A stretch of 24,159 bases of DNA from a virus, in the IMG/VR virus record IMGVR_UViG_3300047322_000626, positions 1-24,159 of that record. One strand, 5' to 3'. A program made the position numbers and the translations under genes. How positions within the stretch are numbered: position 1 is the first letter of the stretch; every line of letters begins with the position of its first letter. The notes beneath the pieces were generated by a model that was given only the letters and a program-made list of their open reading frames with translations, was not told the DNA's origin and ran no database searches. Positions 147 to 16,937 of this stretch are shown piece by piece.

Positions 147-164
147 TGGTAACCGACCCGCTAG
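147..164 (+). promoter_or_regulatory. Phage promoter-like motif P1
   Basis: TGGTAACCGACCCGCTAG, one of six copies of an 18-bp motif in the window. It ends 38 nt before the GTG start at 203. Repetition, orientation and constant distance to start codons support a phage-specific promoter. It has no host-type -35/-10 pair. Confidence 0.65.
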
Positions 165-202
165 CCCCTCTTCGACAGAGAAATCAACTGAAGGGGGCCA
201 CA

Positions 203-1045
203 GTGGCCATCCGCACTGTCCACAAGACTGGCGGGCGTTTCTACTTCAACGAGGATTTCCCGGATATCAAGTACCCGGGCGTTACCTCCGTTGTCGGCAT
301 GGTGCCCAAACCCTTTCTCGCGTACTGGCAGGCGAAGGAAGCGGCCGAACTGGCTGTCGACTCCATCGACTTCATTAAGGACATGGCCGCGCGGGATCGG
401 CAGGGCGCTGTCGACTACGTCAAGGGTGCCGCGAACCGCTACACGAAGCGACGCAGTCAGGTTGGCAGCGACGCGCACGATCTGTTCGAGCGGATGATCA
501 GGGGCCAGCGCGTAGGCCGTGTCCACCCCGACATGGTCCCGTACCAGCGCAACTTTGCTGAGTTCCTCGACGGCGTGCAGCCTGAGCTAGTCCGCGCCGA
601 AGATGTCGCCTGGTCCGACGAGCACCAGTACGCGGGCAGCTTCGACGGCATTCTGCGCCTGCGCCTCGACGAGCACGGCAAGCCTGCGAAGCATGGCGAG
701 CCCTCCCTTGTGATGGCCGACTGGAAGACAAGCAAGGCCACCTACCCGGACGTGGCGCTTCAGATGAGCGCTTACGCACACGCTGAGCACATCATCAGCC
801 CGGACGGAACCCGCACGGACATGCCCGACTTTGATGGGGCTGTGGTCCTGCACATCACCCCGGATCAGGCGGCGTTCAAGCCCGTGCGCATCGCCGATGA
901 GAACGGCCAGCCTGATGTGTTCGCACACTTCCTGAGCCTTCGGCACACGTTCGAGTGGGTCAACAAGGTGTCCAAGACCGTACTCGGGGACCCGATTTGG
1001 TCGACCGATGGCGCCCTGGTTACCGGCACTCAGCGAAGGGCGTAG
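203..1045 (+). CDS. PD-(D/E)XK nuclease, RecB/Cas4-like exonuclease family
   Basis: This 280-residue protein has the signature of RecB-like PD-(D/E)XK nucleases: a conserved His in SDAHDLF (H92), an acidic motif in GSFDGIL (D148), the catalytic pair in ADWKTSK (D173, K175), and a downstream Q-x3-Y helix (Q187, Y191). Such phage proteins are usually annotated as exonucleases and are thought to act in DNA recombination or replication. The GTG start at 203 follows AAGGGGG at 191-197 with 5-nt spacing, and promoter motif P1 lies just upstream. It heads a run with two very small genes. The fold assignment is by motif; substrate and polarity are unknown. Confidence 0.8.
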   Translation: MAIRTVHKTGGRFYFNEDFPDIKYPGVTSVVGMVPKPFLAYWQAKEAAELAVDSIDFIKDMAARDRQGAVDYVKGAANRYTKRRSQVGSDAHDLFERMIRGQRVGRVHPDMVPYQRNFAEFLDGVQPELVRAEDVAWSDEHQYAGSFDGILRLRLDEHGKPAKHGEPSLVMADWKTSKATYPDVALQMSAYAHAEHIISPDGTRTDMPDFDGAVVLHITPDQAAFKPVRIADENGQPDVFAHFLSLRHTFEWVNKVSKTVLGDPIWSTDGALVTGTQRRA

Positions 1046-1048
1046 CCC

Positions 1049-1129
1049 GTGGCACACAAGCACACCGGCCAGTGCTGCGGGCATGGGTACTGCGCGTGCG
1101 GGAAGTCCTGCAAGGTGGCGAAGCCGTGA
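1049..1129 (+). CDS. 26-residue cysteine-rich microprotein
   Basis: GTG 1049 opens 3 nt after the nuclease stop and reads 26 residues, with Cys at positions 9, 10, 15, 17 and 21 and His at 3, 5 and 12. This composition suggests metal binding, such as a mini zinc knuckle. Its stop overlaps the next start in GTGA (1126-1129), typical of translational coupling. There is no clear Shine-Dalgarno sequence; coupling from the nuclease gene would supply ribosomes. Function unknown. Confidence 0.55.
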   Translation: MAHKHTGQCCGHGYCACGKSCKVAKP

Positions 1130-1230
1130 CGCTCATGAATGTGCTGTCTAGCCCCTGGTTTTGGGCCTTCGCGCCCCTGTGGCTGATTGCCGTTGTCCTG
1201 TTCGCTGCCTGGCTCGACGGCGACTGGTAA
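1126..1230 (+). CDS. 34-residue single-pass membrane microprotein
   Basis: The GTG at 1126 overlaps the previous stop (GTGA). The protein has one hydrophobic segment of about 20 residues, roughly residues 8-29, rich in Trp, Leu, Val and Ala, and ends in the acidic WLDGDW. It is probably a small inner-membrane protein. Its TAA stop is formed by the TAA inside promoter motif P2 (TGGTAACC), so gene end and motif are fused. Function unknown; candidate roles such as superinfection exclusion are only conjecture. Confidence 0.5.
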   Translation: MTLMNVLSSPWFWAFAPLWLIAVVLFAAWLDGDW

Positions 1231-1242
1231 CCGACCCGCTAG
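1225..1242 (+). promoter_or_regulatory. Phage promoter-like motif P2
   Basis: TGGTAACCGACCCGCTAG, identical to P1. It overlaps the stop codon of the small membrane protein. The next credible start is 141 nt downstream at 1384, farther than for most copies. I found no gene in 1243-1383, so this would be a long 5' leader. Confidence 0.6.
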
Positions 1243-1383
1243 GACCACTTCGAAGGGGGACGGGCGGCAGGCTACGCCGAACTAGCGACCCTGCATGGGT
1301 TGCACGTAAGCGATGCGCCCCGCCCGTTCCCGTTCCACATTCACAGCCTGCGCGCGAGCGCTTCACAGATACGGCGGTAACCC

Positions 1384-2112
1384 ATGGCCCTGCGCATTTT
1401 CGACACCGACCCTGACGCAAAGCCGAAGCCTCGCACGGCGAAGGTTGAGTACGAGCGGCCCGTGTTTCAGTTCCGATCCGGCATGCAGGTGCGCAACCCT
1501 GACACGCGCCGCATGGAGCCTGTCAGCCTCTCCAACTGGCGTGTCCTGACGGACGATCCGACTGTGGCCGAGAGCATCGCCGAACTTCTGGGCGGCAGCG
1601 CTGAGGAGCACGACCCGACGAAGGCGATGCACCTTCAGGTACTCACTGAGACTCCCTCGGTTGAGATCGTCATTGCGGGCTCGCGCGCCATTGAGGACAA
1701 GCTCATCCTGTGGGGCATCGGCGGACCCGCCCACGAGTGCGACGGCGAGTATTCGCTACTGCCCGACGACAAGGGCGAGCCGTGTGGTTGCCCGCGCACC
1801 ATGGCCGAGCGCAAGGACCTGGCGAAGCGCCGTCCGCCCAAGGGTCCGTCCCCGTCCATCAACGTGACTTTCCGGCTCGCTGGGCTGGGCTACGAGCTGG
1901 GCGCTGGACGCCTGATAGCTACCGCCTGGTCGCTGGCCGAGGTCATCCACGAAGTGAAGGATGCGCTAGACCAGGTCGACGGAGAAGCCCTTTGCCGACT
2001 GGAGCTTGAGCACGTCCAGTACACCAACAAGGCGGGCATTGACGTCAGCTATCGCAAGCCGGTTATCACGGTGCTCGGGTCCTACAACGACGCCATCGGC
2101 GAAGAGCGGTAG
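1384..2112 (+). CDS. Gp3-like recombination directionality factor candidate
   Basis: This 242-residue protein resembles the phiC31 Gp3-like family, which is widespread in actinophages and contains the recombination directionality factor that makes the serine integrase catalyse excision. The match is from memory: similar length, an N-terminal region naming damaged or modified FRSG/FRLAGLGYELG elements, and a Cys cluster (C119, C134, C136). As in phiC31-type phages, it lies among early replication genes, far from int. Many family members sit in phages without serine integrases, so a wider role in DNA metabolism is also possible. The ATG at 1384 has only a weak ribosome-binding site. A direct link to the integrase at 14705 is inferred. 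Confidence 0.6.
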   Translation: MALRIFDTDPDAKPKPRTAKVEYERPVFQFRSGMQVRNPDTRRMEPVSLSNWRVLTDDPTVAESIAELLGGSAEEHDPTKAMHLQVLTETPSVEIVIAGSRAIEDKLILWGIGGPAHECDGEYSLLPDDKGEPCGCPRTMAERKDLAKRRPPKGPSPSINVTFRLAGLGYELGAGRLIATAWSLAEVIHEVKDALDQVDGEALCRLELEHVQYTNKAGIDVSYRKPVITVLGSYNDAIGEER

Positions 2113-2119
2113 GCAAGCC

Positions 2120-2305
2120 GTGCCGCTGAACGAAACTCAGCGGGTGAACGTGGTGGCTGTGCTGGCTCGCGCATCAGATGAGTACCTGGCCCAGCCACTC
2201 TGGAACTTCCACCCGTACTACGCGCCGTTCGTGCTGTCTGCGCGAGCGCGCCGCAATGTCCTGCAACACGACCCTGAGCCTTCGGGCGATCCCGAATACA
2301 GCTAG
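2120..2305 (+). CDS. Small unknown phage protein, 61 residues
   Basis: GTG 2120 lies 7 nt after the Gp3-like stop and opens a 61-residue frame. The longer in-frame extension upstream overlaps the Gp3-like gene and is unlikely to be used. The protein is mostly hydrophilic, with a mid-region rich in Tyr, Trp and Pro (WNFHPYYAPF) and an acidic C-terminus. No known domain is recognised. The stop TAG overlaps the Shine-Dalgarno sequence of the next gene, which points to a co-transcribed operon. Confidence 0.55.
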   Translation: MPLNETQRVNVVAVLARASDEYLAQPLWNFHPYYAPFVLSARARRNVLQHDPEPSGDPEYS

Positions 2306-2318
2306 GAGAGCGAAGCAC

Positions 2319-2588
2319 ATGGCCCTTTACGAGGTTATCCGCACCGACGACGTTGCCCCCGGTGAGTTCGTCTCTGCGTTCGTCATCGCTGGCGGTGCGG
2401 CGCAGGCACGTAACGCTGTGGCGCACCTGGCGGGCGTGGTGGCTACCGGCAAGCGGACGAACATTCTCGCTGCCAAGGTCGACACCACGAAGCGAGTCCA
2501 GATCATCAGCATTTACGACGACGAGCGCGCTCCTGACGCTGCCGCCGACCACATCACGGCGTTCCCTGAGGCTCACGAAGCCTGGTAG
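2319..2588 (+). CDS. Small unknown phage protein, 89 residues
   Basis: ATG 2319 follows AGGAGA at 2304-2309 with 9-nt spacing; this choice trims an extension that would overlap the previous gene. The 89-residue product is soluble-looking, begins ALYEVIRTDDV, and has an Ala-rich helical centre and alternating hydrophobic positions consistent with a small alpha/beta fold. No family is recognised. A strong hairpin follows, so this gene probably ends a transcription unit. Confidence 0.65.
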   Translation: MALYEVIRTDDVAPGEFVSAFVIAGGAAQARNAVAHLAGVVATGKRTNILAAKVDTTKRVQIISIYDDERAPDAAADHITAFPEAHEAW

Positions 2589-2595
2589 GCCGATT

Positions 2596-2633
2596 GCCCG
2601 GAGCTTCCGCACTGCGCGGAGGTTCCGGGCTTT
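2596..2633 (+). terminator. Intrinsic terminator-like hairpin
   Basis: GCCCGGA (2596-2602) pairs with TCCGGGC (2624-2630), and the stem continues inward with two wobble pairs around a short loop. A TTT run follows. It sits just after the stop at 2588. Confidence 0.65.
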
Positions 2634-2667
2634 AGGCAGTAGCGAAGCAAGGAGAGAGGCTACGCCG

Positions 2668-3024
2668 ATGGCTTTCATCTTTACGTCCGAACGTGACCCG
2701 AGGAGAGAAAACGTGGCTGCTTTCAAGGCTGGCGACAAAGTCAAGTACCGGGGCATGGTGATGCCCGCTGAGGTGCTGTCCGGCCCGCACCAGTCCAACG
2801 GCCGTAACCGCTACCTGATTACCAAGGCCGACGGCAACGTCTCGCTGGTGCCTGTCACCGACCTTGAGCGAGTGGTCCCCCGACTCGACCAGGTGGCGGG
2901 AACGCTGTCCGTGGTCCTTTACGGGCGCGCGTTCGTGTCGCTCCCGCGCCACACTCAGTTGCAGTTGGCGCAGGCCGCTTCCCGCGTAATCGCCATCGCT
3001 GATGACACGAAGGGCCAGGCGTAG
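2668..3024 (+). CDS. Unknown protein with SH3/KOW-like N-terminal segment
   Basis: Two starts compete. ATG 2668 gives 118 residues after a GAGAGG sequence. GTG 2713 gives 103 residues behind AGGAG (2701-2705) with 7-nt spacing and may be the better-supported start. From GTG 2713 the protein opens AAFKAGDKVKYRGMVMPAEV, with the Gly-Asp-x-Val pattern seen in small SH3/KOW-like beta barrels. A basic, Ala/Gln-rich C-terminal half follows. The next gene starts 3 nt after the stop. Function unknown. Confidence 0.6.
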   Translation: MAFIFTSERDPRRENVAAFKAGDKVKYRGMVMPAEVLSGPHQSNGRNRYLITKADGNVSLVPVTDLERVVPRLDQVAGTLSVVLYGRAFVSLPRHTQLQLAQAASRVIAIADDTKGQA

Positions 3025-3027
3025 CGC

Positions 3028-3318
3028 ATGGGAAAGCGCGGAGTAGTCACCGACTACGCAGGCGAGGAACTCTACGCTGGCGACCTGATCACGTTCGCTA
3101 CACGGCACGCTAACCGGGTCCGCATGTCCGATGCGGTGGTCCTGGATGTGACCACAAAGTCTGTTGGTGGCCGCCTGGTGCCCACGCTGATGGTTCAGCC
3201 CACGGGCAGGGACAGCGGATGGGGGCTGGGCGCTCGCAAGACGCTTCGGCCGGTTGAGGTCAGCGCGGAGCATGTGCGCCTGGTCACGCCCGATTTCGCT
3301 GTGCAGGACCGCAAGTAA
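3028..3318 (+). CDS. Unknown protein, 96 residues, beta-rich
   Basis: ATG 3028 lies 3 nt after the preceding stop, so translation is likely coupled. The sequence has the pattern of a small beta-barrel (YAGEELYAGDLITFATRH) with a conserved-looking RKTLRPVEV stretch near the C-terminus. It resembles its upstream neighbour in opening with a Gly-Asp turn near the N-terminus, so the two may be distant paralogues; that is inference. No catalytic motif is visible. A terminator-like hairpin follows at 3326. Confidence 0.6.
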   Translation: MGKRGVVTDYAGEELYAGDLITFATRHANRVRMSDAVVLDVTTKSVGGRLVPTLMVQPTGRDSGWGLGARKTLRPVEVSAEHVRLVTPDFAVQDRK

Positions 3319-3325
3319 CAGAAGG

Positions 3326-3363
3326 GGGGTCAGTGTTGCGCTCTGCGCTCGCTGGCCCCTTTT
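3326..3363 (+). terminator. Intrinsic terminator-like hairpin
   Basis: GGGGTCAG (3326-3333) pairs with CTGGCCCC (3352-3359) with one wobble pair, followed by TTTT. It lies 7 nt after a stop and 10 nt before palindrome site a. Confidence 0.6.
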
Positions 3364-3373
3364 CGTGTCGGAC

Positions 3374-3395
3374 CACATACGGATATCCGGAGGTG
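3374..3395 (+). promoter_or_regulatory. Palindrome site a (Shine-Dalgarno variant)
   Basis: The left arm CACATACGGAT and core CGGATATCCG (3380-3389) match the full 22-bp palindrome, but the right arm reads GAGGTG instead of TATGTG. The two T-to-G changes create GGAGGTG, the ribosome-binding site of the GTG at 3402 (6-nt spacing). Confidence 0.75.
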
Positions 3396-3401
3396 ACCCC
3401 T

Positions 3402-3572
3402 GTGACTATCTCGGGGACGGCTGCACCCGCGCTGGGTGATGTGCGGGCAGCAGCGTACGGAGAAACCATCTGGCTTAAGCCAGGTGCAACGAAGCGTAAG
3501 GACTGGCCCCGGTACATGGACGCGCTCACTGTGGCGCTGACTCGGGGCGTTGACGTTAGGTGGGTCCGATGA
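3402..3572 (+). CDS. Small unknown phage protein, 56 residues
   Basis: GTG 3402 is chosen because GGAGGTG lies 6 nt upstream. A GTG at 3393 is inside that Shine-Dalgarno sequence and has none of its own. The protein is basic near its middle (KPGATKRKDW) and has no recognised domain. Its stop overlaps the next start in ATGA (3569-3572). It is the first of three tightly coupled genes ending in the HNH endonuclease. Confidence 0.6.
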   Translation: MTISGTAAPALGDVRAAAYGETIWLKPGATKRKDWPRYMDALTVALTRGVDVRWVR

Positions 3573-3634
3573 CAACGCTGAATGCTCTTTGCTGGGGCCT
3601 GCTACTCGGGTACCTGATTTGGGGGAAGCGGTGA
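3569..3634 (+). CDS. 21-residue membrane microprotein
   Basis: ATG 3569 overlaps the preceding stop (ATGA), and the TGA at 3632-3634 overlaps the HNH start (GTGA). The 21 residues form one hydrophobic segment (NALCWGLLLGYLIW) with a GKR end, a typical tiny single-pass membrane protein. Overlaps at both ends suggest it is translated, either as a real product or to deliver ribosomes to the next start. Too short for homology inference. Confidence 0.45.
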   Translation: MTTLNALCWGLLLGYLIWGKR

Positions 3635-4053
3635 AGGTCTGCCGACTATGCGGGCGGGGAAAGCCCGCCGAACAGTTCCTCGCTGGCAAGGCCCAGAAGC
3701 CGTCTTCGACGTGCAGCACATGCCGCCGCAAGGCCCAGCAGCAACACATCAAGAATTTCTACCGCCGGTTGCCGCCAGACAAGCGCCATGAGCTAACCCA
3801 CAAGCGGCGCGCGGAGTCCTACGGCGTCGAGCATGCCCCTTACAGCCGTACGGCCATCCTCGCTCGCTGGAAGCACAAGTGTGCCTACTGCAACCGTGTT
3901 GCCACGCACCTTGACCACGTCCACCCGCTGAGCAAGGGCGGGGCAGATGCAGAGCACAACATCGTTCCGGCATGTGCCCCGTGCAATCTGAGTAAGGGGG
4001 CTAAGACGCTGGCCGAGTGGGCGCTCACCTTCACATACGAGCCACCCTTCTGA
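3631..4053 (+). CDS. HNH endonuclease with N-terminal zinc ribbon (HNH-1)
   Basis: GTG 3631 follows GGGGGAAG and overlaps the previous stop, giving 140 residues. An N-terminal zinc ribbon uses C4, C7, C28 and C31; a basic linker leads to an HNH domain with C84-x2-C87, D95-H96, and C115-x2-C118-N119. Such nucleases nick or cut DNA and may be free-standing homing endonucleases or work in phage DNA processing. The HNH domain is closely similar to the one at 10054-10368 (DHVxPLS, VPACAxCNLSK, TLAEW). Both genes end a few bases before a copy of the promoter motif. An upstream in-frame start near 3550 is less likely. Confidence 0.85.
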   Translation: MKVCRLCGRGKPAEQFLAGKAQKPSSTCSTCRRKAQQQHIKNFYRRLPPDKRHELTHKRRAESYGVEHAPYSRTAILARWKHKCAYCNRVATHLDHVHPLSKGGADAEHNIVPACAPCNLSKGAKTLAEWALTFTYEPPF

Positions 4054-4057
4054 GCGC

Positions 4058-4075
4058 TGGTAACCGACTCGCTAT
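4058..4075 (+). promoter_or_regulatory. Phage promoter-like motif P3
   Basis: TGGTAACCGACTCGCTAT, differing from the consensus at its last base. It lies 4 nt after the HNH-1 stop and ends 31 nt before the primase-helicase ATG at 4107. Confidence 0.65.
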
Positions 4076-4106
4076 ACCCCCGTGAACGACAGAGAGGATG
4101 CTGCAC

Positions 4107-6551
4107 ATGCAGTTCACTGAAATGCTCGACCGCTTCACGGGGGTCAGCGAACAGGATGACGGCGGGTACCTGGCGCACTGCCCAGCGCACGCCGACAGTA
4201 AGCCTAGCCTTCGGCTGTGGCGGGGCGACGACAACAAGGTTCGGATCACATGCCGCGCGGGGTGTTCAACGGGCGCTGTGATACAGGCAGTTGGGCTCAC
4301 ATGGTCCGATCTGTTCAACGCCGAGGGCGACGGCGCCACCGTTCCGAAGGAGCGCCCTGCCATGGTCGGCATAGCCCACATCGCTGGCCTTCAGAGCTAC
4401 GTCGACATTGCCGGGCAGAACTTGCGCGGTAGCGGGTCACGCAACGCAGACCATGCAGCGCGCTATGCGGCACACAGGTTCGGCATCACCCCAGCCATGT
4501 TCGAGGATCTTGAGCTTGGGCTCAGCGACGACGACACACGGGCCACGTTCCCGTACCTGAGTCGTGCGTTCCTGGCGTTCCCTCGCCTGGTTGTCCCCCT
4601 GTGTGACTTTGACGGGACCGTGCGCGGGTTGCAGGGACGTGACCTTACCGGCGAATGCCCAGGGCGCTGGGTATCGCTGAGCAACCCTCAGGGCCACCGT
4701 TGGGCGCCGTACGGCGTCTTTCGTGGGCAGGGTGGCTACGGGGTCACACTCATCACTGAGGGCCCCGGAGACGGGCTTACAGCGGTTGCGGTGGGCTACG
4801 ACGTCGTCATGGTCCGGGGCGCTGCGCTCGCTGGCTCACCCGAGTTGCTGGCAGAGATTGCCGAAGGGGTGCGCGGTACCCAGGTAATCGCCTGCGGTGA
4901 CGCTGACAAGTCAGGGCAGGACTTCAATCAGAAGTTGGCCGATGGCCTGAAGGCCCATGGCATTGAGGTCTACGCGCTGCCCCTGCCTACCTCGCTGCCC
5001 AACAAGGGCGACCTTACTGACTGGCGCGCGCTCGACCCTGACGCGTTCCCGTGGGCAATCCACAACGCCATCAAGGCCGCTCGACCCGTGGCCAAGCCTG
5101 AAGAGGCACGGCGCGAAGCTGTCAGTGTTGAGCTGAACGAAGCCACCGGCGCGGACACAGTCAGCCGTGACCAGGGCAGTGAAGCGGGCCGCATCCTGGC
5201 TTCGGTCATGGAACGCTACGGCGAGTCTGATGCGATGAACGCTCACGCACTGGTCGCTTGGACGGACGGCCGCATCAAGTACGCCCCGGGGCTTGGCTTC
5301 TATGTGTGGAACGGCCGCACGTGGGAGCGCAGCGAAGTCAAGGTTCGCCAAGAGATTCACCGTATGGGCGCCGCCCTGGTGCTCGCTGGCAAGCTGCAAG
5401 AGTCCAAGGGTTTCACCATGACGACGCGTATAGACGCGCTCATGACGGAGCTGCGCAGTGTGCCCAGCGTGTACGTGGCGGTGCAGGATTTCGACAACCG
5501 GCCCGACCTGCTGAGCTTCCGTAACGGTACCGTCGAGCTACGCACGGGCCACCTGCGGCCACATGCAAAGCAAGACATGCTCACGTATTGCCTGGCGCTG
5601 GACTACGACGCTGCCGCGCAAGCTCCGCGCTGGGAAGCGTTCCTACAAGAAATCATGCCTGGCATGCCTGAGATGCCTGCCTACCTGCAACGCCTCATTG
5701 GCTACGGCGTCACCGGCAACACGGATGAGCAGTGTTTCGCCGTGCTGTGGGGTAAGGGCGCCAACGGTAAGTCTGTCCTCACGGAGACGCTATCCAGCGT
5801 GTTCGGCAACGTCACGAAAACGACCCCCTTTGCAACCTTCGAAGAAAAGCAGTCAGGCGGCATTCCGAACGATATTGCTGCGCTGCGTGGTGCGCGCCTG
5901 GTCATGGCTTCGGAGGGCGAGTCGGGCAAGCCCATGAGCGAGGCAGTGCTAAAGCGGGTCACCGGTAAGGACATGGTCAGCGCACGATTCCTGCGCCAAG
6001 AGTTCTTTGAGTTCCGGCCGTCCTTTCTGCTGATGCTGGCCACCAACCACAAGCCTAAGTTTCGCGGGCAGGATGACGGCCTTTGGCGACGCGTCAAGAT
6101 GATTCCGTTCAAGCGTTTCTTTGCGCCCCATGAGCGTGATTACGACCTTGACAGCAAGCTGCGGGCAGAGGCGCAGGGCATCGCAGCGTGGGCGGTCCGG
6201 GGCGCTGTCGAGTGGTACTCCAACGGCTTGCAGGACCCCAGCGTCATCACAGCGGCTAGCCGCGAGTACCGCGAAACGTCTGACGCGCTGGTCGGTTTCT
6301 TCCCCGGAGTCTTCGAGCGGGACGAGTCGCACAGCGTGCCCGGGGCGGACGCATACAACGCCTACCGCGAGTGGTGTGAGGCCGAGGGACTCCCGTCCAA
6401 GGAAATCTGGACGCGTCGCAGCTTCTATGACGCGATGGAAGAGCGGCAGGTGTCGCGAAAGAAGACGAACAAGGGAATCACGCTGGTCGGTATCCGACCC
6501 GCTAGCGCTGCGCCGAAGGCAACGGGTCCGGGCATCTTCGCTCAGGACTGA
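4107..6551 (+). CDS. DNA primase-helicase (TOPRIM plus D5/P4-type SF3-like ATPase)
   Basis: This 814-residue replication protein has three parts. An N-terminal zinc site (C25, H28, C49, C53) resembles primase zinc fingers. A TOPRIM primase core has ITEG (E218) and ACGDADKSG (D265, D267). A C-terminal helicase of the phage/plasmid P4-D5 type has Walker A WGKGANGKS (548-556), an acidic MASEGESG strand and a sensor-like ATNHKP near 645. It would unwind DNA and lay primers at the replication fork. ATG 4107 is preferred because AGAGAGG at 4091-4097 is 9 nt away; an in-frame ATG at 4098 abuts that sequence. The polymerase gene follows, across a palindrome. Confidence 0.9.
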   Translation: MQFTEMLDRFTGVSEQDDGGYLAHCPAHADSKPSLRLWRGDDNKVRITCRAGCSTGAVIQAVGLTWSDLFNAEGDGATVPKERPAMVGIAHIAGLQSYVDIAGQNLRGSGSRNADHAARYAAHRFGITPAMFEDLELGLSDDDTRATFPYLSRAFLAFPRLVVPLCDFDGTVRGLQGRDLTGECPGRWVSLSNPQGHRWAPYGVFRGQGGYGVTLITEGPGDGLTAVAVGYDVVMVRGAALAGSPELLAEIAEGVRGTQVIACGDADKSGQDFNQKLADGLKAHGIEVYALPLPTSLPNKGDLTDWRALDPDAFPWAIHNAIKAARPVAKPEEARREAVSVELNEATGADTVSRDQGSEAGRILASVMERYGESDAMNAHALVAWTDGRIKYAPGLGFYVWNGRTWERSEVKVRQEIHRMGAALVLAGKLQESKGFTMTTRIDALMTELRSVPSVYVAVQDFDNRPDLLSFRNGTVELRTGHLRPHAKQDMLTYCLALDYDAAAQAPRWEAFLQEIMPGMPEMPAYLQRLIGYGVTGNTDEQCFAVLWGKGANGKSVLTETLSSVFGNVTKTTPFATFEEKQSGGIPNDIAALRGARLVMASEGESGKPMSEAVLKRVTGKDMVSARFLRQEFFEFRPSFLLMLATNHKPKFRGQDDGLWRRVKMIPFKRFFAPHERDYDLDSKLRAEAQGIAAWAVRGAVEWYSNGLQDPSVITAASREYRETSDALVGFFPGVFERDESHSVPGADAYNAYREWCEAEGLPSKEIWTRRSFYDAMEERQVSRKKTNKGITLVGIRPASAAPKATGPGIFAQD

Positions 6552-8926: not shown

Positions 8927-10057
8927 ATGTCTCTCACCATCGAGCACATTCGCGCCGCGCAGGACAACGACCTTGCCGCCATCACGGCAGTCATCGCCGA
9001 CATGGACGAGCGCATATCCCGGCTCGCTGCGCAGGCTGCACGACGACTGAACGGCGACCACCGCGAAGACTTCGAGCAGGACGCACGCGAGGCACTCTTC
9101 AGGGCGCTCCCGCGCTTCGACGCTGACACCGTGGACGCGTTCCACGGGTTCATGTTCAGCAGCATTCAGGACGCACTGAAGGACAAGGTTCGCTCTGCGC
9201 GATACGTCGGTGTGGACAAGGACGCAGTGAAGGTCTTCATGTCGATGCTGGGCGACGCTGAGGGCGACCCGTACCGCGCTGAGCAGATGGCGCAGACCGT
9301 TCCCGCTAAGGGGCTCCGACTCAGCGCCGACCGTGCCCACGCTGCGCGGCTCGCATGGCAGGGCATCGTGTCTGTGGACCAGGTGGCCGGTTCGGGTGGC
9401 ACACAGCACGGGAACGGGTTCGCAGGTAACGGCACGATTGCCGACACGCTGGCCGTGACTGACGAACTCCCCCAGGTTCAGCCGAAGGTTGGTCACGGTG
9501 CCGCTCTGGAAGCGCTGGCCGTGCTCAACCGGTACGTGTGCGTGGGTGTCCGGCGCATGACTCCGGGCGAGTTTTCTGCCAACCTGCCCGCGCTGGTCGA
9601 GGCGCTGGAAGACACCGTGCGGGTGCCCAGTGACCCGACGATTCGCCGCTATGTGCTGGACGCGATGGCCATCCTGCGTTCCGCTGTGTCGACTGCTTCC
9701 GATGGCGACCTTGCCGATGAACTGCGGGATGTGTCCGACGATCGGCGCGACGAGCGGGTAGCCAAGATCGAAATGATTCGCAATGCGCTGGGCAGGGTGA
9801 GCGCGCAGCAGTACACCATCTTGGTTCACTCGTTCGGCATCGGCGGCGCGGAAGACTTCGGGTGGGGCGATGGCTCCGACCTTGACGGGCTTGCCAAGTT
9901 CCTCGGCACGACACCTGGCAACGTCAAGAAGCAGCGCTCGGCCGGACGGCTGGCGTTTACGAAGCACTTCATAGCCTTGGCGGTGCACACCCTCGAAGCT
10001 GCGATGGCGTGGGAAGCTGCCGCCGCTGAGATGCGCAAGCCTGCTGGCCGCAAGTGA
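8927..10057 (+). CDS. Putative phage RNA polymerase sigma factor (sigma-70 superfamily)
   Basis: This 376-residue protein has two parts resembling sigma factors. Residues about 15-90 look like region 2: a helical stretch, then EDFEQDAREALFRALPRFD and a FHGFMFSSIQDALKDKVR segment. Residues about 285-345 look like region 4, with LGRVSAQQYTILV, then a helix-turn-helix-like DLDGLAKFLGTTPGNVKKQ. The middle 180 residues are unassigned. If correct, it would direct host RNA polymerase to phage promoters, and the 18-bp motif is the natural candidate target. ATG 8927 follows CGGAG (8916-8920) with 6-nt spacing. The stop overlaps the HNH-2 start (GTGA). The match is by eye and could be another DNA-binding regulator. 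Confidence 0.55.
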   Translation: MSLTIEHIRAAQDNDLAAITAVIADMDERISRLAAQAARRLNGDHREDFEQDAREALFRALPRFDADTVDAFHGFMFSSIQDALKDKVRSARYVGVDKDAVKVFMSMLGDAEGDPYRAEQMAQTVPAKGLRLSADRAHAARLAWQGIVSVDQVAGSGGTQHGNGFAGNGTIADTLAVTDELPQVQPKVGHGAALEALAVLNRYVCVGVRRMTPGEFSANLPALVEALEDTVRVPSDPTIRRYVLDAMAILRSAVSTASDGDLADELRDVSDDRRDERVAKIEMIRNALGRVSAQQYTILVHSFGIGGAEDFGWGDGSDLDGLAKFLGTTPGNVKKQRSAGRLAFTKHFIALAVHTLEAAMAWEAAAAEMRKPAGRK

Positions 10058-11631: not shown

Positions 11632-11644
11632 CTATGCCTCGGAT

Positions 11645-11666
11645 CACATACGGATATCCGTATGTG
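11645..11666. promoter_or_regulatory. Palindrome site d, 22-bp dyad
   Basis: A perfect copy of the 22-bp palindrome (core 11651-11660) without complementary outer flanks. It ends 2 bp before a host-type -35 element, a good place for an operator. Confidence 0.75.
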
Positions 11667-11668
11667 GG

Positions 11669-11698
11669 TTGCGCGAGTGCCCCACATGCCCCTAGGTT
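11669..11698 (+). promoter_or_regulatory. Host-type promoter candidate
   Basis: TTGCGC (11669-11674), an 18-bp spacer and TAGGTT (11693-11698) fit the vegetative sigma consensus of Streptomyces. It lies between a strong terminator and the gene at 11735. Confidence 0.5.
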
Positions 11699-11734
11699 GA
11701 GACCACAACAACAGCAACGAAGGGGCAGGACACG

Positions 11735-12100: not shown

Positions 12101-12115
12101 TCGCATCAGCAGAAT

Positions 12116-12143
12116 GCCCGGGGCCGTAGCTGCGACCCCGGGC
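12116..12143 (+). other. GC-rich hairpin between genes
   Basis: GCCCGGGG (12116-12123) pairs with CCCCGGGC (12136-12143) around a 12-nt loop with no T tract. It lies just before the Shine-Dalgarno sequence of the next gene and may be a weak terminator or an mRNA-stabilising structure. Confidence 0.5.
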
Positions 12144-12156
12144 TGGGGAGGGAACC

Positions 12157-12402
12157 ATGTTCGTTCACACTGAGAACATCAAGCGCGTGGTGGCTGTGAC
12201 GACCGAGACGGGCGAGGATGGCAACTTTGTTCTCTGCCTCGAAGTGCAGACCGCCGGGAATGTGCGCAAGGTGCTTCGCGTGCCGCACTACTTCGCTGAC
12301 TTTCTTCGGGCATCGCTGGAAAGCGAATTTGATATGATGCCCGAAGATGAGCGCAAGCGCAGTTTTCAAGCCAGCATGGCCAGCGTCCGTAAGGGGAAGT
12401 AG
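12157..12402 (+). CDS. Unknown phage protein, 81 residues
   Basis: ATG 12157 follows a GGGAGGG Shine-Dalgarno sequence. The first 45 residues look like a beta-hairpin-rich fold (VVAVTTETGEDGNFVLCLEV), followed by an amphipathic helix (HYFADFLRASLESEFD) and a basic tail. There are no catalytic motifs. It is followed 1 nt later by the next gene, forming a three-gene run (12157-12773) that ends at a terminator. Confidence 0.65.
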   Translation: MFVHTENIKRVVAVTTETGEDGNFVLCLEVQTAGNVRKVLRVPHYFADFLRASLESEFDMMPEDERKRSFQASMASVRKGK

Positions 12403-12403
12403 C

Positions 12404-12601
12404 GTGCCGCAAATCAAGCTCGATATCCTGGAAATCACGGGCTTCGAAGAGTTCGCCGATCGCAGCGTTGATATTCAGGTGGTCGACCGGGTCCGGGGGC
12501 CGGTTGTCCTCCGCATGCAGGAAGATACGGCGCGCTGGCTGTTCGCTCTGGGTACGGATAAGCTCACTTCGTGGCGCAAGGCTGATGGAGAGGACGACTG
12601 A
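12404..12601 (+). CDS. Unknown phage protein, 65 residues
   Basis: GTG 12404 comes 1 nt after the preceding stop, with AAGGGGAAG as ribosome-binding site, so coupled translation is likely. The product is acidic overall (VDIQVVDRVRGPVVLRM, then a C-terminal KADGEDD). Its strand-strand-helix pattern resembles the upstream neighbour's, so the two could be related. Function unknown. Confidence 0.6.
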   Translation: MPQIKLDILEITGFEEFADRSVDIQVVDRVRGPVVLRMQEDTARWLFALGTDKLTSWRKADGEDD

Positions 12602-12602
12602 C

Positions 12603-12773
12603 ATGGAATACCAGACGCGAGAGTTCCGGGCGGACATGACGTGCGAGTACTCCACGCGGGATCGCTGGGACGGAGTCAGGGCGGTAACGCTGATTGATTG
12701 CGGGCCAGTGGTCGGCATGGTGGCAGCGTGCCAGGAGTGCGCGGACATGTACGAGCGCCTGCAAGCGAAGTAA
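12603..12773 (+). CDS. Unknown phage protein with Cys motif, 56 residues
   Basis: ATG 12603 lies 1 nt after the previous stop. The 56 residues include single Cys residues in MTCEY and LIDCG and a CxxC in ACQEC near the C-terminus. This spacing could bind one zinc ion in a small zinc-ribbon-like fold. It is the last gene of its operon and is followed by a terminator. No defined function. Confidence 0.6.
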   Translation: MEYQTREFRADMTCEYSTRDRWDGVRAVTLIDCGPVVGMVAACQECADMYERLQAK

Positions 12774-12779
12774 GGAACG

Positions 12780-12807
12780 GGGCCCCTTCGGGGGCCCTTT
12801 CTTTTGG
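12780..12807 (+). terminator. Intrinsic terminator
   Basis: GGGCCCC, loop TTCG, GGGGCCC and a TTTCTTTT tract, just after the stop at 12773. Confidence 0.85.
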
Positions 12808-12944
12808 CCTCAATAAGGTTGCTTGACTCAATTAATGAACACAACATGAATGTAATGTACAGGTTTGGCAAACCATACGGCGTATGTCGGAGTATTTGAT
12901 TCCGGAACCTTTACGCTTCCTGTGAGCCCCCCACCCGTCGCCCC
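12808..12944. promoter_or_regulatory. AT-rich intergenic regulatory region
   Basis: The first 80 bases are clearly more AT-rich than the rest of the window. They contain GGTTTGGCAAACC and CATACGGCGTATG (12874-12886), whose arms CATACG/CGTATG equal those of the 22-bp palindrome but with one central base instead of six. It separates the accessory operon from the integration module. Promoter or operator function is inferred. Confidence 0.4.
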
Positions 12945-12950
12945 TAGTTA
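12945..12950 (+). promoter_or_regulatory. -10 element of a leaderless promoter
   Basis: TAGTTA lies 6 nt before the ATG at 12957, which has no Shine-Dalgarno sequence. The spacing places the transcription start at or next to the start codon. The -35 element is not clear. Confidence 0.4.
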
Positions 12951-12956
12951 GCGATC

Positions 12957-13364
12957 ATGACTTGTATTGAGCCGACCCCCACGACAGACCTTTATTTGTT
13001 CATACCCGGACCGCTGGGCCACGGTTCCTGGGCATGGTCCGAACACCCGCGCTGGCCTGGTGTGCTGGCCTCTGACTTCGCTTACAGCGCCCGTGAAGCC
13101 TCAGCGCTCGTACGGGCCTACGCAACGACCGTGGCGCGCCTGATAGCCCCCCGCGAAGCCAACCGGTTCATAGTGCTCGGGCGTGGCCGAGTGACTGGCC
13201 TGGTGCTCGCCCGGGACGAGTGGGAGTGGCACCAGCGGGATAGGGAGTACGCGCCGACCGACGACGAGCCTTGGAACACGTGGCGTACTGCCGCCCGCGC
13301 CTACTACGAAATCACGGGCAAGTTGATCGAGCGTCAGAAGTTCAGACCTAGGCTGGACGTGTAG
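12957..13364 (+). CDS. Unknown phage protein, 135 residues
   Basis: ATG 12957 has a -10 hexamer 6 nt upstream and no ribosome-binding site, so it is probably translated from a leaderless mRNA. The protein has many Trp residues, an Ala-rich helix (AREASALVRAYATTVARLI) and a RFIVLGRGRVTGLVLARDEW strand-turn segment. It is not an obvious helix-turn-helix repressor, although a repressor would be expected somewhere near int. Another leaderless gene follows. Function unknown. Confidence 0.6.
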   Translation: MTCIEPTPTTDLYLFIPGPLGHGSWAWSEHPRWPGVLASDFAYSAREASALVRAYATTVARLIAPREANRFIVLGRGRVTGLVLARDEWEWHQRDREYAPTDDEPWNTWRTAARAYYEITGKLIERQKFRPRLDV

Positions 13365-13374
13365 CACGCACCGG

Positions 13375-13380
13375 TACGCT
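13375..13380 (+). promoter_or_regulatory. -10 element of a leaderless promoter
   Basis: TACGCT lies 7 nt before the ATG at 13388. CTGGAC, 16 nt further upstream, is a weak -35 candidate. No Shine-Dalgarno sequence is present. Confidence 0.45.
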
Positions 13381-13387
13381 CGCCTGC

Positions 13388-13606
13388 ATGAACGACGAGA
13401 CGAACGGGATCACCCCGCCCAAGATCAAGACCTACCGCAGCGTCCCCGAGCTACTCGCCAAGCTTGAGGGGCGTGCAGCCATGTGGGAGCGCGTATCGCG
13501 GGAGAACAAGGAACGGGCGGAAGACTTCGAGCGCGCTGCCCAAGAGATCAGGAACGGTGCAGCAAGCGTTGTCGTAGGGCGTACAACGTACGTGCTAGGG
13601 GAGTAG
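13388..13606 (+). CDS. Small coiled-coil protein, 72 residues
   Basis: ATG 13388 is preceded by a -10 element at 7 nt and no ribosome-binding site, so it is a leaderless candidate. Residues about 17-55 form a long charged helix with heptad-like spacing (ELLAKLEGRAAMWERVSREN, then KERAEDFERAAQEI), likely a coiled coil. A short strand ending follows. Small proteins of this type are common near actinophage integrases, without known roles that I can cite. Confidence 0.6.
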   Translation: MNDETNGITPPKIKTYRSVPELLAKLEGRAAMWERVSRENKERAEDFERAAQEIRNGAASVVVGRTTYVLGE

Positions 13607-13664
13607 CCTGATTCAACTAGTCCGGTAACGGGCCGGGCGTGGTGGTGAGTTAGGACAACCGAAG

Positions 13665-13889
13665 ATGACCCAAGCGGACAGCGTGCAAGCGCTGCGAATG
13701 TCGCTTGACTCGGAGCCTGCGGGTGCCGGGCAAGCGAAGATCGTTTTCCCGGAGTCGTGGGCTCTCTGCGTTCTGTGCGGCGGGCCGACTGAAGTCCTGG
13801 TGGTGATCGCTGTCTTTGAGTCTGCGTCGAACTCTGGCGCACTCAAGGGGTGCGGGTACTGCGCTGACCTACTCGGGGTGGCGGCATGA
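13665..13889 (+). CDS. Small zinc-ribbon-like protein, 74 residues
   Basis: ATG 13665 has no clear Shine-Dalgarno sequence; a TAGGAC 8 nt upstream may be a weak -10 element. Two CxxC motifs (LCVLCG and GCGYCA), about 30 residues apart, could bind a zinc ion. The N-terminal 25 residues look disordered. Its stop overlaps the next start in ATGA (13886-13889), so the two zinc-type proteins are probably made together. Function unknown. Confidence 0.6.
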   Translation: MTQADSVQALRMSLDSEPAGAGQAKIVFPESWALCVLCGGPTEVLVVIAVFESASNSGALKGCGYCADLLGVAA

Positions 13890-14098
13890 GCGAGGGAACG
13901 GGGCCCACGGTCCCACAAGAGGGCTACCAGGCAGCGTGGGCGGCGTACGTAGACCACGTACACCCCAGGGACGGAGAGACCCCGCCGTGCCCCGTCTGTG
14001 TCAGTTCCAAGGGGCCGAGCCTGGGGTGCGAAGAGGGCCAGAGGCTTCACGGTAACTACCGGCTCGCGAGGATCGGCAAGCCCATAACGGCTGGCTAG
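13886..14098 (+). CDS. Small Cys-containing protein, 70 residues
   Basis: ATG 13886 overlaps the previous stop. A CPVC motif and a third Cys (LGCEEG) lie in the centre, preceded by VDHVHP; together they might bind a metal. The N-terminus has an aromatic helix (QAAWAAY). The role may be linked to the preceding zinc-type protein through coupling, but no family is recognised. A strong hairpin terminator follows directly. Confidence 0.6.
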   Translation: MSEGTGPTVPQEGYQAAWAAYVDHVHPRDGETPPCPVCVSSKGPSLGCEEGQRLHGNYRLARIGKPITAG

Positions 14099-14111
14099 CC
14101 TCAAACAGAAA

Positions 14112-14145
14112 AAGACCCGTCCGGGCGGCATCCCGGACGGGTCTT
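14112..14145. terminator. Strong, probably bidirectional terminator
   Basis: AAGACCCGTCCGGG and its perfect complement (14132-14145) form a 14-bp stem around a 6-nt loop, with A residues upstream and T residues downstream. Confidence 0.9.
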
Positions 14146-14440
14146 CTGTGTCTAGTAAGGGGGCGCAGGTACCCGCCAAAGGGCCCACCCCTGCCCATAC
14201 GTGCGGAGCGCGCAGCGAAACGGCATTTGCAGCCTGGTGTACAACTGTGCGGTTTCATGCCAGCGGACGAGCGAGTCATGCCGACTGAGACAACCCGATA
14301 TCTGAACGGCGCCCGGGGGAAGCGGCGCACCCTTGCTCTTTCCCATGCCTCAACTGTACGAATTCCGGCCCGTTACCGAATCGGCCTGCGGTATGGGAAA
14401 GGGGTCACACCAGGGTCACGGCGCCCATATGATCATGGGC
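14146..14440. promoter_or_regulatory. Noncoding region upstream of the int module
   Basis: No convincing gene on either strand. It contains a long inverted repeat, CTTTCCCAT (14338-14346) and ATGGGAAAG (14393-14401), extendable to 12 bp with one mismatch. It also has a direct repeat GGGTCAC-x-GGGTCAC (from about 14402) and ends with TATGAT (14428-14433), 7 nt before the ATG at 14441. This looks like a regulated leaderless promoter, possibly the target of an unseen repressor. Confidence 0.4.
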
Positions 14441-14650
14441 ATGAATCGCAGATACGTAATCAGGCGTTCCCCGGGCGGTTGGGGAATACGCGACCTAGTG
14501 GCACCAGGCCTCTGCACGCTGCAAGACGACCAGGGCGCCACAGTGCCGCTTGAGTGGGACGACCCCACAGGGGCCGAAGAGTGGCTGTACCGGTGCCGCG
14601 TAGCTTGGGGCGCTGGCCTGGTCACAGCGCCGGACGGCTGGCGCGGATAG
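14441..14650 (+). CDS. Unknown phage protein, 69 residues, upstream of int
   Basis: ATG 14441 is preferred over the longer frame because TATGAT lies 7 nt upstream, giving a leaderless mRNA, and because the extension reads through the repeat-rich control region. The protein begins NRRYVIRRSPGGWGIRDL and has several Trp residues; the pattern suggests a small beta-sheet domain. It ends just before the inverted repeat next to the integrase. No family is recognised; a helper of integration is possible but unsupported. Confidence 0.55.
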   Translation: MNRRYVIRRSPGGWGIRDLVAPGLCTLQDDQGATVPLEWDDPTGAEEWLYRCRVAWGAGLVTAPDGWRG

Positions 14651-14651
14651 G

Positions 14652-14709
14652 TCCATGTACTCAAGGGTGTGCATGTGACCCCTGACGTGTGTAGCCTTGA
14701 GTACATGGA
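14652..14709. other. Candidate phage attachment site (attP), 58-bp inverted repeat
   Basis: Perfect 15-bp arms TCCATGTACTCAAGG (14652-14666) and its complement (14695-14709) flank a 28-bp centre. Attachment sites of large serine integrases are typically about 50 bp, lie next to int and show similar dyad arms; phiC31 attP has this plan. The right arm overlaps the int start codon. An int operator is the main alternative. Confidence 0.5.
14692..14697 (+). promoter_or_regulatory. -10 element of a leaderless int promoter
   Basis: TAGCCT lies 7 nt before the integrase ATG at 14705, the same spacing as for the genes at 13388 and 14441. It lies partly within the right arm of the inverted repeat. No strong -35 is seen. 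Confidence 0.4.
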
Positions 14710-16174
14710 TCAGAAAACGTTGAACGTCGCGCTGTACCTGCGCCTGAGCCGGGACGCCGAAGGCAGCGCCAGCATCGAGACCCAGCGTGCTGCGGCCCTT
14801 GCCTGGCTGGCCGCGAACGGGATCACTGACTACGTGCTCACTGAGTACCTAGACGCTGGCGTGTCCGGCGCGAAACCCCTGGAAGCCCGTAAGGGCATGG
14901 CCCAGCTCATGACCGACGTACAGGAGCGTGTCACGGCCGCAGGGCGGAACGGGCCGGGAGAGACGATTGTCATAGCGTGGAAGCTGGACCGGTACGCGCG
15001 CAGCGTGAGTGAGTTCCTCCGCCTGGTCGCGTGGGGCCAGCCTCGCAATGTGCGGTTGGCCACGACAGACAACACGATCAACACCACCACCGCCACGGGC
15101 CGCATGGTCGCAACGTTCCTTGCAGCGCTGGCCGAGTGGGAACGCGACCTGATCAAATCGCGCATCACCGAGGGGCAGGCCACTCGACGGACGCAGGGCC
15201 GATGGGGCGCCGGAAACCCCCCGTACGGGTACCGAATCGTGTTTCGGGACGGCGCTGCGTATCTCGAAATACACGAAGAGCAAGCGGCCGTAATCCGGAA
15301 AGCCGTCGACGAGCTGTTGAACAATGAAGACAGTTCGGTAGCGAGCACAGCGCTGATGGTGGACGTGTCAGAGGCCCAATGGCGCCGGTTGCTCAAAGCG
15401 CCGACGCTGAAAGGCCAGCGCACGCACCATGGCCAACTTGTCGTTGCCGATGATGGAATTACGCCCGTGCAATTCGCTGAGCCGATCATCGGCGCCGCTG
15501 AATTCAAAAAGATTCAAGCCAGGCTGGCGAGGCTGTCCACTGGGGCGCAGCAGACGCCTAGGGCGGGGGCTAACCTCTGCGCCGGTATGTCCTGGTGCGC
15601 TGTCTGCAACGGGCGACTGAACGGCGGACGCAGCGACAGGGGCGAACAGCTCTACCGGTGCAAGGCTGGGCACGTAGCCATCTACGCCCGTGTGCTCGAC
15701 GAGAAAGTTGAGGCCGAATTCATGACCAGGTTCGGCGGCATGGCTGAGTACGTGGTGCGACTCGAAGGCGGTAACGATCTCAGCGACCAACTGACGGAGG
15801 CGGAGGAGCAAGCGAAGCGTCTGTCCAAGCGCATGGCTACCGCTGGTCCGCTGATGCTCGGATCGCTCGAAGAGCTGGGCGCTGAGCTGGAAGCCACGTA
15901 CGCCGCTCTAAGGGCCGCGCACGACCCTGACGTACGCGAGGTGCTTGAGCCCACTGGAAGGACGGTAGGCGACGCGTGGGAGGCCTCCCCGGGGTCGCGT
16001 GGCCGCTTGCTCCGGGACCTAGGGCTACATGTAGTGCTGGCCGCCAACGGGCGGGGACGAATCAGCGCGGAGCGGGTAGGCGAGCGCGTGTCGGTCTCAT
16101 GGGCCATCGGGGGCGATGATCATGACCTTGCCGAAATGCTCGGCGACCTTGACGCAGAGATGGTGTCCCAGTGA
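14705..16174 (+). CDS. int: Large serine integrase
   Basis: This 489-residue site-specific recombinase would join attP and a host attB. The N-terminal resolvase domain has VALYLRLSRD with catalytic Ser15 and the conserved WKLDRYARS. A recombinase domain follows with GRWGAGNPPYGYR. A zinc ribbon (CAGMSWCAVCNGRL, then YRCKAGH) and a charged coiled-coil region near residues 355-410 complete the family order. Length fits the class. ATG 14705 is preferred for its leaderless -10 element; GTG 14675 with AAGGG upstream is a possible longer start. The stop overlaps the next gene. Excision would need a directionality factor, perhaps the protein at 1384. Confidence 0.93.
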   Translation: MDQKTLNVALYLRLSRDAEGSASIETQRAAALAWLAANGITDYVLTEYLDAGVSGAKPLEARKGMAQLMTDVQERVTAAGRNGPGETIVIAWKLDRYARSVSEFLRLVAWGQPRNVRLATTDNTINTTTATGRMVATFLAALAEWERDLIKSRITEGQATRRTQGRWGAGNPPYGYRIVFRDGAAYLEIHEEQAAVIRKAVDELLNNEDSSVASTALMVDVSEAQWRRLLKAPTLKGQRTHHGQLVVADDGITPVQFAEPIIGAAEFKKIQARLARLSTGAQQTPRAGANLCAGMSWCAVCNGRLNGGRSDRGEQLYRCKAGHVAIYARVLDEKVEAEFMTRFGGMAEYVVRLEGGNDLSDQLTEAEEQAKRLSKRMATAGPLMLGSLEELGAELEATYAALRAAHDPDVREVLEPTGRTVGDAWEASPGSRGRLLRDLGLHVVLAANGRGRISAERVGERVSVSWAIGGDDHDLAEMLGDLDAEMVSQ

Positions 16175-16674
16175 TTCACTGCACGATTTGCCAGCACGAC
16201 AAACAGCGAAGCGAATTCGCTGACAGCGAGGTGCGGAACGAGACCACCGGTTGGTGTAAGTCCTGCATGGTCCTGTACAGGGAAGCGGTCCGCTTGGGTG
16301 TCCGGGACCCCGCGCAGCACGTACGCAACGCCCTGCCTCCCATTGAGTGCTCTAAGTGCGGCGAGACCAGGCCCACCCGAGAATTCGCCCCGGGCGCGCA
16401 GGTAGCCACCTGTGTGGCGTGCTGGGACGGAGGCAAGGGCGAGCGCAGGCGGGAGTCAATGCGCAAGATCCGGGCAGCTACCCCAGCGGAGGACAAGGCG
16501 AAGGCACAGGCGGCATTCCGCGCTGGCATGCGCAAGGACAAGTGCGCCATCTGCGGAAGCCCCATCGAAGGGCACGGCATCTGCGTGCAGTGTGAAGGCC
16601 ACGTGATGGCGCTGGGCGGGCTCGACGGGTTGAAGCAAGCCGTTCGCGCTGTGCGGTATCTGCAAAGCGAGTGA
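16171..16674 (+). CDS. Multi-zinc-ribbon protein coupled to int, 167 residues
   Basis: GTG 16171 overlaps the int stop (GTGA). Six CxxC motifs are seen (CTIC, CKSC, CSKC, CVAC, CAIC, CVQC), which pair into three zinc ribbons: residues 4-33, about 55-86 and about 128-145. The first two modules resemble the N-terminal zinc ribbon of HNH-1, but no HNH nuclease motif follows. The last module ends in a helix (GGLDGLKQAVRAVRYL). It might bind DNA or the integrase. Its position suggests a role in integration, but this is inference. Confidence 0.65.
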   Translation: MIHCTICQHDKQRSEFADSEVRNETTGWCKSCMVLYREAVRLGVRDPAQHVRNALPPIECSKCGETRPTREFAPGAQVATCVACWDGGKGERRRESMRKIRAATPAEDKAKAQAAFRAGMRKDKCAICGSPIEGHGICVQCEGHVMALGGLDGLKQAVRAVRYLQSE

Positions 16675-16820
16675 GCTGGGTCACACTGTTTGGTAACGGG
16701 GCGATCACGGGCGAGTGCCGGTGGTCGCCCTTCGGCGCTACAGCGCACAGGGTCGGTGACGTTTTGTTTTCAGCGCCCAAGATCAAGACCCCCTCTGACC
16801 AGCAAGAAGTGATGAAGTGA
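16671..16820 (+). CDS. Small unknown protein, 49 residues
   Basis: GTG 16671 overlaps the preceding stop (GTGA). The frame reads a plausible soluble peptide (WVTLFGNGAITGECRWSPFG, then a basic APKIKTPSDQQEVMK end). Its last codons and stop are inside repeat copy 2, giving the same C-terminal EVMK tail as the partial gene at 1-66. Coupling and sensible composition favour a real gene, but it is short and unassigned. Confidence 0.45.
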   Translation: MSWVTLFGNGAITGECRWSPFGATAHRVGDVLFSAPKIKTPSDQQEVMK

Positions 16821-16828
16821 CGATTTAG
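16793..16828 (+). repeat. 36-bp dispersed repeat, copy 2
   Basis: This matches 39-74 at 35 of 36 bases and again covers a stop codon and the left arm of a GTGACG inverted repeat. Confidence 0.9.
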
Positions 16829-16900
16829 CCCATGTCTTACCAACACCTATGGGGCTACTAAGGGAAACCGGGGAGGCATGGTCGAGCGTCACTTCGTCAC
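16809..16900. promoter_or_regulatory. Inverted GTGACG-box array upstream of promoter motif P6
   Basis: The left arm GTGATGAAGTGACG (16809-16822) pairs with 16887-16900 at all 14 positions, one of them a G-T pair. The layout matches 55-146, with a different sequence between the arms. Promoter motif P6 follows 19 nt later. Operator function is inferred. Confidence 0.5.
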
Positions 16901-16919
16901 TCCCCCGGTCCGGTGCCTC

Positions 16920-16937
16920 TGGTAACCGACTCGCTAG
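16920..16937 (+). promoter_or_regulatory. Phage promoter-like motif P6
   Basis: TGGTAACCGACTCGCTAG, a perfect consensus copy, 124 nt upstream of the first tRNA. It probably drives the tRNA cluster. I see no gene in 16938-17061. Confidence 0.65.

Follow-up and report, generated by a model that had tools for sequence, protein, structure and literature searches.

Phage-specific early promoters were reportedly found in phage phiC31 in work from the 1990s, and we know of no protein identified so far as the reader of phiC31-type promoters. Here we analysed an 18-bp motif that recurs in a 24,159-base viral record (IMG/VR record IMGVR_UViG_3300047322_000626, the whole of which is called the window below), together with gp12, the product of a gene in the same window. 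The window is part of a phiC31-like Streptomyces phage, and its gene order is like that of phiC31. As in phiC31, the motif, aligned over 17 columns, stands in the same register ahead of orthologous genes, and this also holds for phiBT1, Rowa and others. Its sequence, however, differs by phage, the 5' half being GGTAACC in the window, GGTCACC in phiBT1, GGTTGCC in phiC31 and GGCATTC in Rowa; the link to gp12 and its domains comes from the present analysis. We propose that the copies are promoters for the host RNA polymerase core carrying gp12 as a phage sigma factor, and we put the probability of this reading at roughly 85%.

Three described systems bear comparison. In phage 7-11, late promoters are read by the sigma factor gp47 and consist of the boxes GTAAtg and aCTA, 16 bp apart (PMC8948821). 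The window phage resembles it in having a phage sigma factor with region 4, a bipartite promoter and similar boxes, but its boxes lie ~7-8 bp apart and the host is another one. This contrast in spacing is striking because phage 7-11 also has its own sigma factor and such similar boxes. The same source gives 15% identity between the sigma factors of 7-11 and phiEco32, and describes promoters of phiEco32 gp36 that share with the window a phage sigma factor and a short compact element, with the start 6-8 bp downstream; they differ in having a single promoter element and a sigma factor without region 4 (PMC8948821). In engineered chimeric extracytoplasmic function (ECF) sigma factors, swapping the domain that reads the -35 or the -10 box swapped the matching promoter half (PMC3817407). 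Those factors were made in the laboratory and their boxes lie in the usual places, whereas the gp12 swaps reported below are natural and occur in phages.

Seven matches to the motif were found in the window at three or fewer mismatches, all on the + strand (Table 1); dinucleotide shuffles gave an expectation of 0.02, and none of 100 reached seven. A first-pass annotation, made from the letters alone, had listed six copies and read them as a phage-specific promoter. All six were recovered at their positions on the + strand, five exact and one with a single mismatch, but the list was incomplete, since P3b had been overlooked. It had also placed the copies always on the + strand and between genes, of which the first part held; P2 overlaps the stop codon of the frame 955-1230, and P3b is intragenic. 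The distance of 31-38 nucleotides (nt) from P1, P3, P4 and P5 to a start codon was reproduced with the starts of Table 1, and P6 does precede tRNAs predicted by ARAGORN. The claimed lack of a host-type -35/-10 pair also stood: only two consensus-like sites occur in 1-17200, where 2.5 are expected, and neither is near any copy. Position, strand and cross-phage comparison agree, and they support the reading of the repeated signal as a putative phage-specific promoter. As a separate feature, a 49-nt direct repeat (92% identical) occupies 30-78 and 16784-16832, starting 117 and 136 nt upstream of P1 and P6, respectively; the unit near P1 runs into a 42-nt imperfect inverted repeat.

The strand bias and the placement of the copies extended to related phages. 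At three or fewer mismatches, forward matches numbered 8, 8 and 9 in three longer relatives (39.5, 81.7 and 39.1 kb), and reverse matches 1, 2 and 0. The phiC31 copies precede genes 2, 3, 9a, 11, 12, 13, 25, 46 and 52; the small frame behind P5 corresponds, in position alone, to phiC31 gene 13, which is also preceded by a copy. At the place in the primase gene that matches P3b, Rowa (29549) and three further phages (L108, L092 and L087) carry their own version of the motif. The core GGNNNNCGACNCNCT, which was not selected by strand, had exact + strand matches in phiC31 (7), phiBT1 (6), Rowa (9), Lilbooboo (7) and Euratis (4) with none on the - strand, and + and - matches of 3 and 1 in TG1 and of 2 and 1 in Tweety19 (all among the matches listed).

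For a wider comparison, gp12 homologue loci with their surroundings were taken from viral contigs (61), a separate scan (1) and Streptomyces genomes (3), besides the named phages. Motifs were defined for each phage from seeds in the 130 nt ahead of gp12, keeping the seed with the most + strand and the fewest - strand repeats. This gave 76 motif/gp12 pairs, from which four without a convincing motif were removed by judgement (Dubu L073, phiSASD1 L074, L128 and L130). Also left out were L131 (gene at a contig end), L096, L097, L098, L106, L113 and L117 (repeats of named phages), L081 (gp12 identical to that of L080) and Tweety19. The 72 phages kept were reduced for covariation by excluding eight with uncertain register (L071, L078 and L136-L141) and by a 95% redundancy filter, leaving 53. 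With strand-blind seeds, the 72 phages had 330 further copies on the + (coding) strand vs 9 on the - strand. A frame with a ribosome-binding site began within 70 nt (median 35 nt) of 363 of 509 copies at three or fewer mismatches; 20 trials with random places gave a mean of 67 and a maximum of 82. Spacing between the halves was nearly invariant in 64 phages, with 367 pairs at the standard gap, one pair one base shorter and one pair one base longer; other gaps had 1-9 pairs each, as did the opposite strand. Orthologous promoter sites, including the copy in the primase gene of L108, L092 and L087, have changed in situ, and single sites show one or two departures from the consensus.

The motif and gp12 were compared column by column, using the motif letters of the 53 non-redundant phages, which have 15 distinct 5' halves, and 277 gp12 columns. 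Motif positions 1-6 scored higher with region 4, where the recognition-helix residues 332, 334, 335 and 336 were among the top columns. Positions 10-12 scored with regions 3 and 2, leaning to region 3, and positions 13-17 with region 2, position 13 weakly. When 13 motif positions were split six to seven in all ways, the real split ranked 1 of 1716 by contrast, and it kept this rank at 80% redundancy, without the chimera groups, and with long or short gp12 only (sets that overlap with the whole). After control for DNA polymerase distance and for the other domain, the partial rank correlation of the 5' half was 0.42 with region 4 and -0.19 with region 2, and that of the 3' half was 0.50 with region 2 and 0.07 with region 4. 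In a permutation test, the contrast was 0.97, compared to a maximum of 0.41 in 300 label permutations, a null that ignores kinship. The comparison showed joint change of the motif and gp12 within this phage family: the 5' part (positions 1-6, GGTAAC in the window) follows region 4, and the 3' part (positions 13-17, GCTAG in the window) region 2.

Natural gp12 chimeras gave a second view of the same relation. L087 and L085 are 89% identical in region 2 and 34% in region 4; both promoters end in CGAACCGCTAG, and they start with TGCGTTC and GGTAATC, respectively. L108 and L092 (92% in region 2, 36% in region 4) both have promoters ending in CTCGACAG, with the starts TGCGTTC and GGTAACC. The promoters of L090 and L092 (94% and 45%) differ at position 2 only. 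In the reverse case, L108 and L087 are 63% identical in region 4 and 37% in region 2, and the promoter start is the same and the end different. Among matched frames (gp12 and some overlapping frames counted), 19 of 25 were at least 70% identical between L087 and L085, and 12 of 22 and 18 of 25 were at least 85% identical for L108/L092 and L090/L092, respectively. Within these pairs, a change of gp12 domain is seen to alter only the corresponding motif half.

The gp12 gene sits directly after that of DNA polymerase, and several searches point to a sigma factor. The window protein matched Pfam Sigma70_r2 with 27.1 bits (cut-off 24) and PHROG 15865 (RNA polymerase sigma factor) with E 9e-113; the Pfam region 4 model had no match in it. 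The single Sigma70_r2 match was gp12 in the window, phiC31, phiBT1 and two ~39-kb relatives (one below the cut-off), and the 81.7-kb record had two such matches. A profile of 23 short gp12 homologues retrieved SigA, RpoD and RpoS from Protein Data Bank sequences (best E 3.7e-6), with the C-terminal part aligned. The AlphaFold2 model of the window gp12 (mean predicted local distance difference test score, pLDDT, 86.6; predicted template modelling score, pTM, 0.40) has helices in sigma order, a disordered linker and an extra helical insert ahead of region 4, and helices at 269-352. All 50 matches listed by VIA-align for gp12 were sigma-factor or transcription-initiation entries (top Z 12.8, 209 residues, root mean square deviation 21.6), with alignments spanning residues 1-358, and a short homologue had ten Foldseek matches at E <=0.001. 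Model, structure alignments and profile agree on a sigma-like domain order and a region 4 helix-turn-helix. RefSeq names gp12 a sigma factor in phiC31, phiBT1, TG1, Vash and Rowa, among others, so that this identity is already in public annotation. From sequence and predicted structure, gp12 is a putative phage sigma-70-family factor, and it is the most likely reader of the motif. The gp12 proteins of Heather (L067, 30334-31347) and Sebastisaurus (L068, 30256-31260) carry an extra C-terminal multi-cysteine stretch with the look of a zinc-binding tail.

Table 1. Motif copies and gp12 regions in the window
Feature	Coordinates	Strand	Remarks
Copy P1	147..164	+	exact; 38 nt ahead of start codon 203 of the gene 1 homologue (exonuclease family, PHROG exonuclease)
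Copy P2	1225..1242	+	exact; upstream of 1384-2112, the gene for the recombination directionality factor; frame 955-1230 uses the TAA of this copy as stop codon
Copy P3	4058..4075	+	one mismatch; ahead of the DNA primase gene, likely start 4107
Copy P3b, CGGTATCCGACCCGCTAG	6488..6505	+	two mismatches; intragenic, within the 3' end of primase; DNA polymerase lies downstream
Copy P4	8876..8893	+	exact; 33 nt ahead of the putative sigma-factor gene gp12 (start 8927)
Copy P5	10372..10389	+	exact; ahead of a small reading frame at 10425
Copy P6	16920..16937	+	exact; upstream of the predicted tRNA cluster and packaging/head genes (terminase, portal)
gp12	8927..10057	+	376 residues; predicted sigma-70-family factor, proposed reader; Pfam, PHROG and structure matches
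gp12 region 2	9011..9256	+	residues 29-110; tracks motif positions 13-17
gp12 region 3	9257..9376	+	residues ~111-150; leans to motif positions 10-12
gp12 region 4	9779..9976	+	helix-turn-helix, residues 285-350, recognition helix from 330; tracks motif positions 1-6

On the proposed reading, the host RNA polymerase core with gp12 would recognise every copy. The 5' part would serve as a -35-like box recognised by region 4 and the 3' part as an extended -10-like box recognised by regions 3 and 2, and transcription would start ~10 nt past the motif. Copy P4 would give gp12 positive feedback once the first gp12 had been supplied in another way, and the copies together would turn on replication, recombination and tRNA/late genes. 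Several observations weigh against this reading. The first strand count, 449 to 0, is partly built in because the seed choice favoured the + strand and penalised - strand copies. In the short-gp12 set, the top single columns were scattered, with no concentration in region 4, and the C-terminal tail of gp12 is a further correlate of motif positions 1-2. The distance of DNA polymerase keeps a partial correlation of 0.35 with each half, and the correlations include shared ancestry, which the 300 label permutations do not preserve. Foldseek returned nothing at E <=0.001 for the window gp12 model (best 0.018, a sigma-S chain), and a Z of 12.8 is within the warning range of VIA-align and not decisive for helical folds. 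Finally, the two boxes lie too close together to suit a standard holoenzyme.

This last point concerns the geometry. The half that follows region 4 and the half that follows region 2 lie ~8 bp apart at a fixed spacing, compared to 16-18 bp for the boxes of standard sigma-70 promoters. With ordinary spacing, positions 1-6 would be the -35 box, the purine-rich positions 24-31, the canonical 17 bp on, would be the -10 box, and the 3' half would be a mere spacer. A GA[AG][AG]G-like element does keep a fixed distance at positions 27-31 (up to 0.8 bits), and thymine is rare at 27-35. However, this element shows no clear covariation with gp12, region 2 included, whereas the 3' half covaries with region 2 and follows it in the chimeras. 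Some copies, moreover, have GGAGG at 27-31 and a start codon at ~36-40, too close for a start at ~37. We consider standard geometry unlikely.

We read the purine-rich element, which is weak in the window (GAAGG in two of seven copies), as a presumptive transcription start region. Of the 363 ribosome-binding sites, 95% have their first base at about position 29 or later, and a few are GGAGG exactly at 27-31; ten, mostly at copies ahead of a virion gene, start before position 27. These positions would favour a transcription start near 27 over one near 37. We give even odds to a compressed sigma-70-type promoter, in which region 4 would read a box at ~-26 to -21, about one helical turn nearer the -10 box than in known sigma-70 promoters and in rigid register, and in which regions 4 and 2 would be exchanged as modules, the promoters of the genome changing to match. 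In tRNA/virion-gene copies (phiC31 L061 at 12978 and 40568, and P6 of the window), stretches like ATATAGGTAG, GTGTAGGTAG or ATATATGGTATG replace the purine-rich element; they are perhaps a late-promoter version.

The compact and rigidly spaced motif would also suit a separate phage activator that binds it and brings in host polymerase carrying a host sigma factor, and DNA polymerase was the sole control protein in the covariation. The halves, however, follow two domains of gp12, also in the chimeras, whose neighbouring proteins differ much less, which makes an activator improbable. Fixed orientation and the short distance to start codons would be shared by an RNA-level element in the 5' leaders, such as a processing or antitermination site, but one copy is located within the primase coding region, and the motif sequence tracks the DNA-binding domains of a sigma factor; we regard this explanation as very improbable. 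The least probable reader is a phage single-subunit RNA polymerase, whose T7-type promoter core the motif core resembles (a resemblance only), since gene 11 encodes a family-A DNA polymerase with an exonuclease domain and PF00940 matched 0 of 6 records, a weak point as the control was silent too. The first-pass annotation had further noted a likeness to the GG-N10-GC pattern of sigma-54 promoters. A sigma-54 promoter was rejected because the diagnostic GG and GC vary among relatives: in place of the '-12' GC, phiC31 and phiBT1 have CC and Rowa has AC, and Shaeky-like phages have CT instead of the GG.

The match of halves to domains, the chimeras and the compressed spacing were not found among the matches listed in the literature searched, which lay outside most subscription journals, and no title among the matches listed concerned phiC31 early promoters or gp12 as their reader. 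The analysis provides a named candidate reader for phiC31-type promoters and a prediction at the level of residues. It also provides naturally diverged sigma/promoter pairs for Streptomyces, natural domain swaps included, which might serve as mutually independent switches. The compressed spacing, if true, would challenge the rule of 16-18 bp between the boxes read by sigma regions 4 and 2 and might represent a new promoter geometry. These data also prompt the question of how, after a change in a sigma domain, the phage comes to rewrite its promoters.

The primase of the window shares 73% identity with its counterpart in Streptomyces phage Rowa and 64-67% with the primases of phiC31, phiBT1, TG1 and Vash, and the protein of 1384-2112 is 54% identical to the annotated recombination directionality factor of Rowa and 39% to phiC31 gp3. 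The genes run in the order exonuclease-like gene 1, directionality factor, HNH endonuclease, primase, DNA polymerase, gp12, integrase, tRNAs, terminase, portal and protease. A 22-bp palindrome like CACATACGGATATCCGTATGTG occurs in seven copies (3374-3395, 6574-6595, 10771-10792, 11645-11666, 17903-17924, 19783-19804 and 23650-23671) and in ten copies in the 39.5-kb relative. None was found in phiC31 or phiBT1 at three or fewer mismatches; phiC31 has ~15 copies of a different palindrome, around ACTCACGTGAGT. The CACATACGGATATCCGTATGTG-like palindromes are perhaps lysogeny repressor sites. The one at 6574 forms the centre of a perfect inverted repeat of 32 nt, which may also stop transcription. 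The palindromes at 3374-3395, 17903-17924 and 19783-19804 have GGAGGTG in one arm, so that the candidate repressor site also contains a ribosome-binding-site sequence. Two of the tRNAs predicted by ARAGORN have odd anticodons, of four bases at 17062-17138 and of two bases at 17203-17274.

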